Source: Prolixibacteraceae bacterium (GTDB lineage Bacteria > Bacteroidota > Bacteroidia > Bacteroidales > Prolixibacteraceae). Taken from it: a stretch of 64,000 nt of DNA. The DNA is taken from positions 1 to 64,000 of the forward strand of contig JABGRN010000012.1 of the NCBI GenBank assembly GCA_018648265.1. Reading direction: 5' to 3'. Below are positions 25,824-29,681 of the stretch, in pieces. The notes beneath the pieces were generated by a model. The model did no database searches, was not told the DNA's origin, and saw only the letters and a list, made by a program, of their open reading frames with translations. Positions within the stretch are counted from its first letter, which is position 1, and every line of letters starts with the position of its first letter. The position numbers and the translations under genes were made by a program.

Positions 25824-28800
25824 ATGGGTAATAGGTTTCAGGAATACAAGCAATTAGATCTCTCGCAGATAAACAAAGATGTGCTAAATCGTTGGGAGGA
25901 AGATGATACTTTTCACAAAAGTATTTCTACCCGCGAAGGTCGTCCAACATTTGTATTTTACGAAGGTCCGCCATCGGCAAACGGAATGCCGGGAATTCAT
26001 CATGTTATGGCGAGGGCAATTAAAGATATTTTTTGTCGCTACAAAACCATGAAAGGTTTTCGTGTACACCGAAAAGCAGGGTGGGACACACACGGTTTGC
26101 CCGTGGAATTGAGTGTAGAAAAAGCACTAAATATTACCAAAGAAGATATTGGGAAAAAGATTTCTGTTGAAGAATACAATCAGTCGTGCCGCACCGAGGT
26201 GATGAAATATACCCGCGAATGGGAAGATTTGACCCGTATTATGGGTTACTGGGTAAACATGGACGACCCATACGTAACCTTTGATAATAGGTACATTGAA
26301 ACTGTTTGGTGGCTACTTAAAAAAATATACAGTAAAGGATTGCTGTATAAAGGATATTCAATTCAACCTTACTCGCCGGCTGCCGGAACCGGTTTAAGTT
26401 CGCACGAATTAAATCAGCCTGGTTGTTACCGCGATGTAAAAGATACAACTGCAATTGCCCAGTTCAAAACCATCAGAAACGGAAAATCGGAATTTCTTTT
26501 TGAGGGAACAGATACTGATGTATATTTTTTAGCATGGACTACTACTCCCTGGACTCTTCCATCGAATACCGCTCTTTGTGTTGGCCCCGGAATTAAATAT
26601 GTAAAAATAAAAACGTTTAATCCTTACACCGGAATTCCTGTAACCGTTATTTTAGCAAAAGATTTATTTCCGGTTTATTTTAATTCGAAAAATGAAGATT
26701 TATCATTTGAAGAATATAAACCTGGCGACAAAAAAATCCCTTATAAAGTTTTAAATGAATATTCAGGGAAAGATCTGGCCGGTGTTCAATACGAACAATT
26801 AATTGAATGGGTAAAACCAAAAGGAAAGGCTTTTGAAGTTATTACCGGAGATTTTGTAACTATTGAAGACGGTACAGGAATAGTTCATATCGCTCCTACT
26901 TTTGGTGCCGACGATGATCGGGTTGCAAAACAAAACGGGATTTCACCATTAATTGTTGAAGATTCAGAGGGCAAAACACAAGCCCTGGTCGATAAAAAAG
27001 GCAGGTTTTACCCTACTAAAGAATTAGATAGCGCTTTTGTTGAAAAATATGTAAACACAGAAAAGTATCACGATTTTGCCGGCAGATCAGTTAAAAACGA
27101 ATACGACGACAAGCTGGAAGATGATGCACCGACTGTTGATGTGGATATTGCAATAATGCTGAAACAGGAAAACAAGGCCTTTAAAATTGAAAAGCATACA
27201 CACAGTTATCCTCATTGCTGGCGCACCGATAAACCGGTTTTATACTACCCTCTCGATTCGTGGTTTATAAAAACAACAGCCGTTAAAGACAAAATGGTGG
27301 AACTAAATAACACCATTAACTGGAAACCAAAATCAACCGGAACAGGAAGGTTTGGTAACTGGTTGGAAAATCTTGTTGACTGGAATTTAAGCCGCTCGCG
27401 TTTCTGGGGAACACCACTTCCAATTTGGAGAACCGAAGATGGTTCGGAGGAAATTTGTATTGGTTCAACAGAAGAATTAATGGCCGAAATTAAAAAAGCC
27501 ATGGCAGCCGGTTTTATGGACGAAAATCCTTACGAAGGTTTTGAAGTTGGGAATAATACAAAAGAAAATTACGACAAAGCAGACTTACACAAACCTTATG
27601 TCGATAAAATAATTTTGATTTCAGCTTCGGGGCAAAAAATGTTTCGTGAGCCAGATTTAATTGATGTTTGGTTCGATTCGGGTGCGATGCCATTTGCCCA
27701 ACGTCACTATCCGTTTGAAAGCCCCCACTTACTCTCCCAAGGGGGAGAAAGAAGAACCCCAAAATGGCAAACTGCAAGAGATTCAAGTAATGGGCTTTTA
27801 AAAGAGTTGGCAAAAAAACAAAAAGAAAATCCAACTGAGGCAGAAGTTTTTCTTTGGCAAAATCTTAAAAACAAAAATTTAGCCGGATATAAATTCAGGC
27901 AGCAACATATTATTGATCAGTTTATTGCCGATTTTGTTTGTTTAGAAAAACAATTAATAGTTGAAATTGATGGAGGTTATCACTCGTTGCCTGAAGTAAA
28001 AATTTCAGACAAACAGCGAACTGAAATACTCGAAGAATTAGGTTTTGCCATTATTCGATTTACTAATGAAGAGGTAATAAATAATACTGAAGGCGTTCTC
28101 AATAAAATCACTTCTGTTCTTAACTCCCTCCCCTTTGGGGAGGGTCGGGGTGGGGCTTTATTCCCGGCCGATTTTATTGCAGAGGGAGTTGACCAAACAA
28201 GGGGTTGGTTTTTTACTTTGCATGCAATTGCAACAATGATTGGAGAGTCGGTTGCATTCAAAAATATTATTTCAAACGGGCTGGTGTTAGATAGCGCGGG
28301 AAATAAAATGTCGAAGCGTTTGGGAAATGCTGTTGACCCGTTTTCTACTATCGAAAAATATGGGTCAGACCCCTTGCGTTGGTATATGATAACCAATGCA
28401 CAACCCTGGGACAACCTAAAATTTGATATCTCAGGTGTTGAAGAAGTGAAACGTAAATTCTTCGGGACATTATATAATACGTACAATTTCTTTGCACTTT
28501 ATGCAAATGTTGACGGATTTACTTATTCTGAAGAAGAAATATCGATGGAACAGCGCCCTGAAATTGATCGCTGGGTAATATCTCTTTTAAATTCTTTATT
28601 AAAAGAAGTTGGCGAGAGTTACGAAAATTATGAACCCACTCGTGCAGGGCGTGCCATTTCTGAATTCGTTTCAGAAAATTTAAGTAACTGGTTTGTCCGT
28701 TTAAGTAGAAAAAGATATTGGGGTGGAGAATATTCAAGCGATAAAATTTCAGCGTACCAAACTTTATATACTTGTTTAACCACGGTGGCAAAATTAATGG

Positions 28801-29681
28801 CGCCAATTGCACCATTTTACGCCGATTTGTTGTTTGCCGATCTCAATAAAATTACCCAAAAAGAAACCGATCAGAGCGTGCATTTAGTAGATTTCCCTGC
28901 ACTTAACGAAGACTTGATCGACAAAGATTTGGAAGAAAAAATGGCCATTGCACAAAAAGCCTCATCCATGATTTTGGCACTCAGGAGAAAAGAGAAATTA
29001 AAAGTGCGCCAACCACTTGCAAAAATAATGATGCCAGTTCTTAATCCACCGTTTAGGGAGCAATTTGATGCAATCAAAAATATTGTCCTGTCGGAAGTGA
29101 ACGTTAAAGAGGTTGAATATCTGACCGATACGGCCGGAATAATTAAAAAGAAATTAAAGCCAAATTTTAAAACATTGGGACCGAAATTCGGAAAACTGAT
29201 GAAACTTATTGCTGGAGAAGTAACCCGCTTTAGCCAATCGGATATTTCAATTTTCGAAAAAACGGGAACTTATAATATTTCTATTGGCGAAGAAAACATC
29301 GAATTATCTTTAGAAGATGTCGAAATTCAAACCGAGGATATCCCAGGATGGACAGTCGCCTCGGAGGGGCAGATGACCATCGCCCTTGATATTAATATTA
29401 CAGAAGAACTAAAACAAGAAGGAATTGCCCGTGAATTTGTAAATAAGATCCAAAATCTACGTAAAGAAAATAACTTTGAAGTTACAGATAGGATAAGTTT
29501 AACGATTTTAAAACAGGATAAAATTAATGACGCGGTATTAATCCAGAAAGACTATATTTGCACGCAAACTTTGGCTGCAGGGTTGCAATTGGTTGATAAT
29601 TTGACAGATGATAAGGCAAAAGAAGTTGAAATTGATGCAGAAGTAAACACAAAAATTTTGGTTGAAAAACTAAAAAACTGA
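25824..29681 (+). CDS. ileS: isoleucyl-tRNA synthetase with in-frame DUF559 nuclease insertion
   Basis: Class Ia synthetase charging tRNA-Ile. The host protein is complete: HIGH-type motif 'SANGMPGIHH' (residues 51-60), editing domain, 'DVWFDSGAMPFAQRHYPFE' (to 632), 'FPADFIAEGVDQTRGWFF' (from 780), KMSKR (828-832), anticodon-binding domain, and C-terminus 'ILVEKLKN'. Residues about 633-778 are foreign: a DUF559 domain. Total 1285 residues versus about 1130-1150 expected for this IleS type. The frame is open throughout and no stop or frameshift is seen, so the enzyme is presumably made with the extra domain as an extended loop of the catalytic domain. First gene of a rightward run with the DksA-like gene, lspA and cysS. 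Confidence 0.96.
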   Translation: MGNRFQEYKQLDLSQINKDVLNRWEEDDTFHKSISTREGRPTFVFYEGPPSANGMPGIHHVMARAIKDIFCRYKTMKGFRVHRKAGWDTHGLPVELSVEKALNITKEDIGKKISVEEYNQSCRTEVMKYTREWEDLTRIMGYWVNMDDPYVTFDNRYIETVWWLLKKIYSKGLLYKGYSIQPYSPAAGTGLSSHELNQPGCYRDVKDTTAIAQFKTIRNGKSEFLFEGTDTDVYFLAWTTTPWTLPSNTALCVGPGIKYVKIKTFNPYTGIPVTVILAKDLFPVYFNSKNEDLSFEEYKPGDKKIPYKVLNEYSGKDLAGVQYEQLIEWVKPKGKAFEVITGDFVTIEDGTGIVHIAPTFGADDDRVAKQNGISPLIVEDSEGKTQALVDKKGRFYPTKELDSAFVEKYVNTEKYHDFAGRSVKNEYDDKLEDDAPTVDVDIAIMLKQENKAFKIEKHTHSYPHCWRTDKPVLYYPLDSWFIKTTAVKDKMVELNNTINWKPKSTGTGRFGNWLENLVDWNLSRSRFWGTPLPIWRTEDGSEEICIGSTEELMAEIKKAMAAGFMDENPYEGFEVGNNTKENYDKADLHKPYVDKIILISASGQKMFREPDLIDVWFDSGAMPFAQRHYPFESPHLLSQGGERRTPKWQTARDSSNGLLKELAKKQKENPTEAEVFLWQNLKNKNLAGYKFRQQHIIDQFIADFVCLEKQLIVEIDGGYHSLPEVKISDKQRTEILEELGFAIIRFTNEEVINNTEGVLNKITSVLNSLPFGEGRGGALFPADFIAEGVDQTRGWFFTLHAIATMIGESVAFKNIISNGLVLDSAGNKMSKRLGNAVDPFSTIEKYGSDPLRWYMITNAQPWDNLKFDISGVEEVKRKFFGTLYNTYNFFALYANVDGFTYSEEEISMEQRPEIDRWVISLLNSLLKEVGESYENYEPTRAGRAISEFVSENLSNWFVRLSRKRYWGGEYSSDKISAYQTLYTCLTTVAKLMAPIAPFYADLLFADLNKITQKETDQSVHLVDFPALNEDLIDKDLEEKMAIAQKASSMILALRRKEKLKVRQPLAKIMMPVLNPPFREQFDAIKNIVLSEVNVKEVEYLTDTAGIIKKKLKPNFKTLGPKFGKLMKLIAGEVTRFSQSDISIFEKTGTYNISIGEENIELSLEDVEIQTEDIPGWTVASEGQMTIALDINITEELKQEGIAREFVNKIQNLRKENNFEVTDRISLTILKQDKINDAVLIQKDYICTQTLAAGLQLVDNLTDDKAKEVEIDAEVNTKILVEKLKN
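27718..28159 (+). mobile_element. DUF559-encoding insertion within ileS
   Basis: A 442-bp segment inside ileS. It starts AAAGCCCCCAC (27718-) and ends GTGGGGCTTT (-28159), imperfect terminal inverted repeats. Each end has an internal palindrome: CTCCC..GGGAG (27734-27747) on the left and CCCTCCCC-TTT-GGGGAGGG (28126-28144) on the right. Everything is translated in the ileS frame. The encoded domain (residues about 669-760) has DUF559 hallmarks: 'NPTEAEVFLWQNLKN', 'GYKFRQQHIIDQFIADFVC' and 'LIVEIDGGYH', with PD-(D/E)xK residues D703, E714 and D716 present, and 'LGFAIIRFTNEEV'. These are Vsr-like nucleases. No intein splice motifs (no Cys/Ser at start with His-Asn at the end). Confidence 0.85.

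Follow-up and report, generated by a model that had tools for sequence, protein, structure and literature searches.

A hairpin-ended DUF559 nuclease insert in frame in the isoleucyl-tRNA synthetase gene of a Prolixibacteraceae bacterium: a probable splicing-free mobile element

Inteins and introns are thought to require splicing in order to survive in essential genes, and inteins and homing introns are known for a distribution that is patchy, faithful to site and partly horizontal. Homing would often leave co-conversion of the flanks, and classical transposition does not replace host codons; REP palindromes are moved by yet another kind of enzyme, the RAYT transposases. Several described systems come close to the locus reported here. 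The homing endonuclease I-Bth0305I has, according to the portion of its description available to us, a long DNA-binding region (PMC3943268). In the intein section of a paper on cyanobacteria a DUF559-containing gene is placed in the EDxHD homing family (PMC9403480), and the idea that DUF559 may act in homing is therefore not new. Rickettsia palindromic elements (RPEs) are palindromic repeats that lie in frame in protein genes and are translated, and the passages that deal with RPEs of about 150 bp describe a conserved peptide (PMC10969869). The account of VsrA of Caulobacter links this protein, in its accessible parts, to DNA damage signalling in a mutant, and horizontal transfer is mentioned there for solitary vsr genes (PMC12907096). 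Within the open-licence literature, which our search covered in part, we found no account of hairpin-ended DUF559 elements or of unspliced in-frame inserts in synthetases.

In this study, we analysed a DNA stretch of 64,000 nucleotides (the window, meaning this stretch at its full length) from a Prolixibacteraceae bacterium, the nearest named relatives found being Draconibacterium of the same family. Its ileS gene is a single open frame that holds a DUF559 nuclease domain between hairpin ends. The features are as follows, all on the forward (+) strand.

25824..29681 (+): ileS, isoleucine--tRNA ligase, 1285 codons including the insert; the sole copy found in the genome.
27718..28159 (+): the inserted element from end to end, 442 nt, with inverted ends AAAGCCCC / GGGGCTTT; the TIGR00392 match breaks at 27722/28131.
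27718..27751 (+): left end, a C-rich tail and a hairpin with the stem TCTCCC/GGGAGA at 27733-27748; translated SPHLLSQGGE.
27801..28121 (+): DUF559 (PF04480) nuclease domain, PD-(D/E)xK / Vsr-like by match (118.1 bits) and by fold.
27930..27932 (+): codon D703, invariant among aligned family members.
27963..27971 (+): codons E714 (27963) and D716 (27969) of the ExD motif, invariant.
28126..28159 (+): right end, the hairpin CCCTCCCCTTTGGGGAGGG at 28126-28144 and the G-rich tail TCGGGGTGGGGCTTT; translated LPFGEGRGGA.

The sequence-only reading of this DNA had proposed an in-frame DUF559 insert at bases 27718-28159 with ileS intact on both sides, and this description proved exact to the base, the inverted ends lying at these coordinates; Pfam and TIGR00392 (ileS) agree with it. 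On the single open frame Pfam finds tRNA-synt_1 (in two stretches), Anticodon_1 and DUF5915, domains of IleS that flank DUF559, which itself occupies residues 660-766 (E 9.8e-33, 112.7 bits against a curated Pfam cut-off of 20.6). The TIGR00392 match of 979 bits covers model positions 3-556 up to base 27722 and resumes at 28131 with positions 553-849. No second ileS above the TIGR00392 cut-off was found in the window's genome, which is listed as 100% complete. DUF559 is the sole domain that Pfam finds in the insert, with no HUH (Y1) transposase, and about 28 + 12 of the 148 residues of the insert lie outside the match. The earlier statement that there is neither an intein signature nor a frame shift also holds, as the frame is open and a Pfam scan at E 0.001 detected no intein family within it. 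An intein was rejected because the same scan shows no splicing (Hint) domain around the nuclease, and a self-splicing group I or II intron was rejected because the frame is open throughout and no Rfam family exceeds its gathering score at the insert site, where two sub-threshold matches (E 0.003 and 0.01) are taken as chance. Beyond that reading, our analysis revealed the hairpin and inverted ends on both sides of the insert: AAAGCCCC starts at 27718, GGGGCTTT ends at 28159 and the right end is a rough inverted copy of the left one. Folded as DNA, the right hairpin has a z-score of -2.6 and the left hairpin one of -1.0, which is weak alone.

The residues that had been named as catalytic, D703, E714 and D716, correspond to D72, E83 and D85 of the insert alignment and are invariant in 57 aligned sequences; the seed of the HMM was chosen by a DF...(E/Q)xDG pattern, so its conservation is partly built in, and the PF04480 searches are independent of this pattern. 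A check for degeneracy of the active site found all three residues kept in 33 of 33 ileS, valS and leuS inserts compared, and one of the 19 rows from other hosts lacks E83 and D85 in the alignment. For the 22 closest insert pairs dN is 0.09-0.20 and dS, where defined, 0.6-2.8 (near saturation), and as judged from these codon and residue comparisons the nuclease residues are conserved and the domain is under purifying selection. An AlphaFold model of the insert (pLDDT 84.7) has the helix and strand order of the family, with low confidence for both ends, which form the linkers, and the model of full-length IleS (mean pLDDT 77, pTM 0.60) is too uncertain for distances. The DUF559 protein NGO0050 (PDB 3hrl) is the top PDB match both by profile and by Foldseek. 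It is followed by the catalytic domain of the homing endonuclease I-Bth0305I (PDB 3r3p), which has a profile E value of 9.6e-7 and Foldseek ranks 2-3 (E 2.7e-4, TM 0.78 on target), and E. coli Vsr stands at Foldseek rank 10. By these matches, I-Bth0305I is the nearest enzyme of known activity to the nuclease of the insert.

The search for DUF559 elsewhere in the window's genome, which had been suggested as a check, yielded five more genes, each with C/G-rich palindromes or near-palindromes on each side when inspected by eye, and in-frame inserts were met in many other genomes and genes. Free DUF559 copies bear hairpins more often than expected by chance: 11 of 56 have perfect 6-bp-stem hairpins on both sides and 25 on one side, as compared with 2 and 52, respectively, of 611 random stand-ins. 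For 66 large-frame copies the figures are 45 and 12, though a comparison of free with in-frame copies is biased in that large-frame loci were selected deliberately and free ones chiefly for their score. The density of hairpins is 3.8 per kb in DUF559 flanks versus 0.21 per kb elsewhere in these loci. For 57 of 112 elements (expected, 1/9) the left flank scored better against the reverse complement of the element's own right flank than against those of 8 other loci, and inverted ends are present in about half of the elements and not in all; domains too near a locus end were dropped from both the hairpin and the end-repeat counts. In one locus (L161) the inverted ends are identical over 32 of 32 nt. 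The median end-repeat score of free copies is 18.8 for direct versus 13.2 for inverted repeats, which shows that a clean inverted pair is not always present. Among the palindrome matches listed, from which tandem arrays of genome G059 were excluded, 10 of 63 lie within 250 bp of a DUF559 domain where about 0.04 would be expected, and one palindrome pattern has between 0 and 15 matches per genome in 60 genomes. At the level of whole genomes the link between DUF559 and the palindrome is not significant (24 of 39 DUF559-bearing versus 7 of 21 other genomes, Fisher p 0.058).

Some individual loci deserve mention. The window's own genome contains double-hairpin, REPIN-like units (L008-L012, on contigs C13, C52, C89 and C124) laid out as a C-rich tail, a hairpin, an TCCTCCCCTTTGGGGAGGT hairpin and a G-rich tail; in L009 the sole ORF of at least 60 codons is one of 71 codons, and these units are possible non-autonomous relatives of the element. 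Two near-alike free DUF559 genes with similar palindromic flanks, about 3 kb apart on contig C43 (L002 and L003), are likely to be a duplication. In valS of genome G299 (L165), a stretch that repeats part of the insert's start in direct orientation comes after the DUF559 insert; it looks like a tandem copy that has lost an internal segment. Outside Bacteroidota, hairpins flank DUF559 on both sides in 6 of 6 plasmid examples, a count made without a control, with two of the examples GC-rich and all of them picked from 39 records (three cyanobacterial genera, Deinococcus and Sphingomonas). On a plasmid of Deinococcus psychrotolerans (L253) such a hairpin-flanked DUF559 copy lies between paaD and paaZ and has, by eye, long inverted repeats, and on one of Sphingomonas parapaucimobilis (L254) it lies between sufB and sufC. 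Phage yielded DUF559 matches in only 2 of 50,697 records.

Alignment with the IleS proteins of relatives, another check that had been proposed, readily produced insertion-free ones. From 120 loci parsed, 4 duplicates and 4 short sequences were dropped, leaving 112 rows, of which 89 are empty, 18 carry the insert and 5 are hairpin-only or scar-like (L054, L062, L092, L125 and L211, labelled by us, L062 being doubtful); a survey of ileS in at least 395 genomes of the class served solely to select genomes and empty loci. Over the IleS tree of these rows the state of the insert changes at least 15 times. In one clean pair of filled and empty alleles, a 477-nt insert in L072 stands against 33 nt, an 11-codon loop, in L080, and the aligned DNA beside the site is 92-94% identical. 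This pair shows no target-site duplication, the 33 nt having been replaced, and no co-conversion tract beside the insert was seen, as the first 100 nt contain 6 differences on one side and 8 on the other, and the next 400-700 nt have 3-11 per 100. Relative to L080 the ileS gene of L072 is a mosaic, with strong divergence and extra blocks from about 500 nt upstream; such a pattern is a sign of recombination within ileS, and recombination of gene parts may carry inserts passively.

The window's sister in the tree and nearest relative found, L054, has a loop 8 codons longer than those of empty relatives, with PFENPHLLSSGQEQGEASLF where the window has PFESPHLLSQGGE...GGALF, and this stretch resembles the left end of the insert. 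In L092, the sister of Marinilabilia salmonicolor, PFEGRTVGEGGLPF resembles the ends of the sister's insert within a loop of normal length. We infer that both loops may be scars of insert loss, and the earlier view that the element would be hard to lose without precise excision is not supported. A solo end in L211 and one palindrome unit in L125 also lie at the ileS insert site. Counting from WFDSG and with scars taken in, the loop without an insert is between 24 and 37 residues long; it may, as proposed, lie at the surface, which fits this variation among insert-free rows. With close relatives doing without DUF559, nothing indicates that the domain serves IleS; the DNA- or RNA-cutting side activity that had been offered as a second possibility is neither supported nor contradicted by the data.

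When the trees of the 18 ileS inserts and of their hosts were tested against each other, the host topology was rejected by the insert data (p-AU 0.0024) and the insert topology by the host data (p-AU 2.4e-5), and inheritance that is vertical only was rejected on this ground; the relatives do not all carry the domain, as they would if it were an inherited part of IleS. On the other hand, insert and host identities correlate (Spearman 0.54, pairs not independent), which indicates that part of the history is vertical, and both trees group L018, L020 and L021 together and L072 with L161. The history of the ileS inserts is, as far as the trees can tell, a mixture of inheritance and transfer, and horizontal spread of the element is well supported by them. 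In the insert tree, from which identical domains and domains of less than 90 residues were dropped, the 7 valS inserts form one group (SH-aLRT 91). With 5 long-branch rows dropped, a single clade was not rejected either for the ileS inserts (p 0.54) or for all synthetase inserts (p 0.66). Several independent invasions of the ileS site, which a first tree with 6 label changes had suggested, were set aside because one ileS clade fits slightly better. The inserts thus appear to be site-faithful, patchy and partly horizontal, with a single ileS clade not rejected rather than shown.

The in-frame copies are not confined to ileS. Frames of more than 300 codons hold 21 of the matches listed for 60 genomes of the family to which the window belongs (8 ileS, 6 valS, 4 restriction-modification genes, 2 hisD tails and 1 trpF tail), three weak large-frame matches with E over 1e-5 (in G007, G028 and G015) being excluded, and the insert in ileS is found in 8 of the 60 genomes and in 2 of 5 of the window's genus. 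PF04480 is present in 105 of 247 genomes of the order, with at least 22 matches in frames of more than 300 codons; the hosts among the matches listed are 8 leuS, 4 ileS, 1 valS, 6 restriction-modification genes and 3 others, the window's ileS being counted in both the family and the order sets. A third set of 32 genomes, biased since 30 were chosen for a weak or split ileS match and 2 for longer matches, adds recG, a second leuS site, a second ileS site and a SpoIIE-type phosphatase. Hosts identified by name include hsdR, hsdM, type ISP and other methyltransferases, an aminotransferase and an epimerase. The identity of the host was assigned by Pfam for 18 proteins, by NCBIfam for ileS and leuS of the order set and most ileS of the family set, and by motifs for the rest. 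The valS and leuS1 inserts sit directly upstream of TTRPxT, a motif of the editing domain, at a homologous place, and the ileS site is a different one. Two synthetase genes are invaded at once in genome G473 (ileS and leuS) and in G053 (ileS and valS). The search found no second ileS in 12 further carriers (in 11 the gene passes the cut-off and in the twelfth it is cut by a contig end), nor a second leuS in 8 carriers. In-frame DUF559 domains in HsdR, type ISP and other methyltransferase genes (L045, L047, L048, L171, L174, L176 and L234) fall, all but L045, into one supported tree group, which is perhaps a second in-frame lineage.

At the level of sequence, the in-frame insertion, the hairpin ends, the conserved nuclease, the patchiness at one site, the conflict between insert and host trees, the other hosts and the free copies are established. 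We propose, with a probability of roughly 0.7, that the insert is a homing-type mobile element which does without splicing and persists as an extra domain of essential proteins. According to this model, the cassette would be a single nuclease domain of Vsr/EDxHD-like type (DUF559) flanked by hairpin ends open to read-through, and would settle in the catalytic half of IleS, in frame within a variable loop, where DUF559 would be translated within the synthetase and fold separately on hairpin-encoded linkers while the synthetase still works. The nuclease may cut insert-free alleles, or the hairpin ends, upon which host repair would copy the cassette in; alternatives would be a repair in which ends are lost, or copying that uses short homologies between hairpins. 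Arrivals that are out of frame would be purged by selection, and those in frame in a loop would persist with IleS still folding. In addition, the nuclease would drive the spread, the 1285-residue fusion would be the working enzyme and the element would be selfish rather than useful, all of which we infer. The original suggestion of a mobile nuclease in a tolerated loop of an essential protein is supported by the patchiness, the conflict between trees, the filled and empty pair, the hairpin ends and the other hosts. However, the replacement of host codons, without a duplication and without a co-conversion tract, counts against a simple homing picture, as does the finding that the ends of free copies are more often direct than inverted repeats. 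The partly vertical history, the domain's lack of a long DNA-binding region and the mosaic ileS of L072, by which inserts may have been carried passively, also weigh on the negative side.

Other explanations have to be considered. The cassette could be moved in trans by an unrelated enzyme, such as an HUH or other transposase, with the nuclease as cargo that serves, for example, in defence. Hairpin units without a nearby DUF559, both in the window's own genome (L008-L012) and at the ileS site (L211 and L125), are what would be expected of non-autonomous copies, and the movement of REP palindromes by RAYT transposases is a known parallel. We nevertheless regard such transport as unlikely, as little but DUF559 lies between the nearest hairpins in copies from four phyla inspected by eye, the three acidic catalytic residues are retained in all synthetase inserts compared, a homing endonuclease is the closest enzyme whose activity is known and PADLOC gave weak, partial matches (E 5e-5 to 7e-4) for both proteins tried. 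A single gain of DUF559 in an ancestral IleS, followed by many in-frame losses, would be compatible with the one ileS lineage allowed by the tree test, with the loss-like loops of L054 and L092 and with the partial agreement between trees; it is quite improbable given that insert and host trees reject each other, that carriers are scattered across the window's class among close non-carriers, that the near-perfect inverted ends of L161 and L072 look young and that unrelated genes hold the same cassette.

It is more improbable again that the nuclease is retained because of a benefit to the host, be it phage defence tied to an essential protein or Vsr-type repair. The presence of the domain is patchy with empty sisters, the host genes have no evident function in common and the hairpin ends are typical of a mobile element, which is difficult to reconcile with a useful fusion, even though the domain is under purifying selection and many in-frame DUF559 copies reside in restriction-modification genes. 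Lastly, several carriers are metagenome bins, as an assembly artefact or an ileS pseudogene might suggest; we give next to no credence to either, since in many genomes, that of the named strain Marinilabilia salmonicolor MSL42 among them, the ileS of carriers is one open frame of about 1290-1370 codons, no other ileS was found in 13 genomes and conserved residues flank the insert on both sides. A splicing-free mobile element of the homing type remains our preferred explanation.

Under this explanation, a nuclease cassette seems to live unspliced in an essential gene, where it is tolerated as an extra domain, and seems to pass from species to species at fixed sites. Should the nuclease be what moves the element, DUF559, a common family of unknown function, would gain a role; this would also explain palindrome-coded peptides such as SPPLEG and LPLGEGQGGA in proteins that we have seen and point to one route for the entry of new domains into essential enzymes. 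Alleles of ileS in the filled, empty and scar-like states provide natural test material. With a little less than even odds, DUF559 may represent a widespread, unnamed class of mobile element, seen here in Bacteroidota, Cyanobacteriota, Deinococcota and Pseudomonadota, with one lineage in the loops of class Ia synthetases and perhaps a second in restriction-modification genes. Members of such a class would comprise one Vsr-like nuclease between hairpin repeats and move by their own cutting, and ends that read through as a linker would make essential proteins their refuges.

The element shares features with several known systems and differs from each of them. It has the same DUF559/Vsr-like domain as NGO0050 (3hrl) and Caulobacter VsrA, proteins which are treated as free-standing in the accounts accessible to us, with hairpin ends or in-frame residence unmentioned in those parts. 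The inverted repeats at the ends of about half of the elements recall inverted-repeat transposons and MITEs, from which the element differs by the lack of a target-site duplication in the one clean pair. As in REP/REPIN and RAYT systems, hairpin units surround a single nuclease gene and also occur as units without a gene, but the enzyme is PD-(D/E)xK/Vsr-like and not an HUH transposase, and there are few units per genome. An RPE is likewise a translated palindrome in frame in a protein gene; in contrast to RPEs, the element carries a folded nuclease with an active site that is intact by sequence, and synthetase loops are common hosts, so that it resembles an RPE in how it works but is not one. 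I-Bth0305I, mobile introns and inteins are matched in the profile and fold of the nuclease, in the residence in conserved host genes and in a patchy, site-faithful and partly horizontal history. The domain of the insert differs from I-Bth0305I, as far as that enzyme's description was available, in being without the long DNA-binding region (PMC3943268), and the element differs from mobile introns and inteins in that its ends are inverted hairpins, host codons are replaced and the nuclease stays in the host protein.
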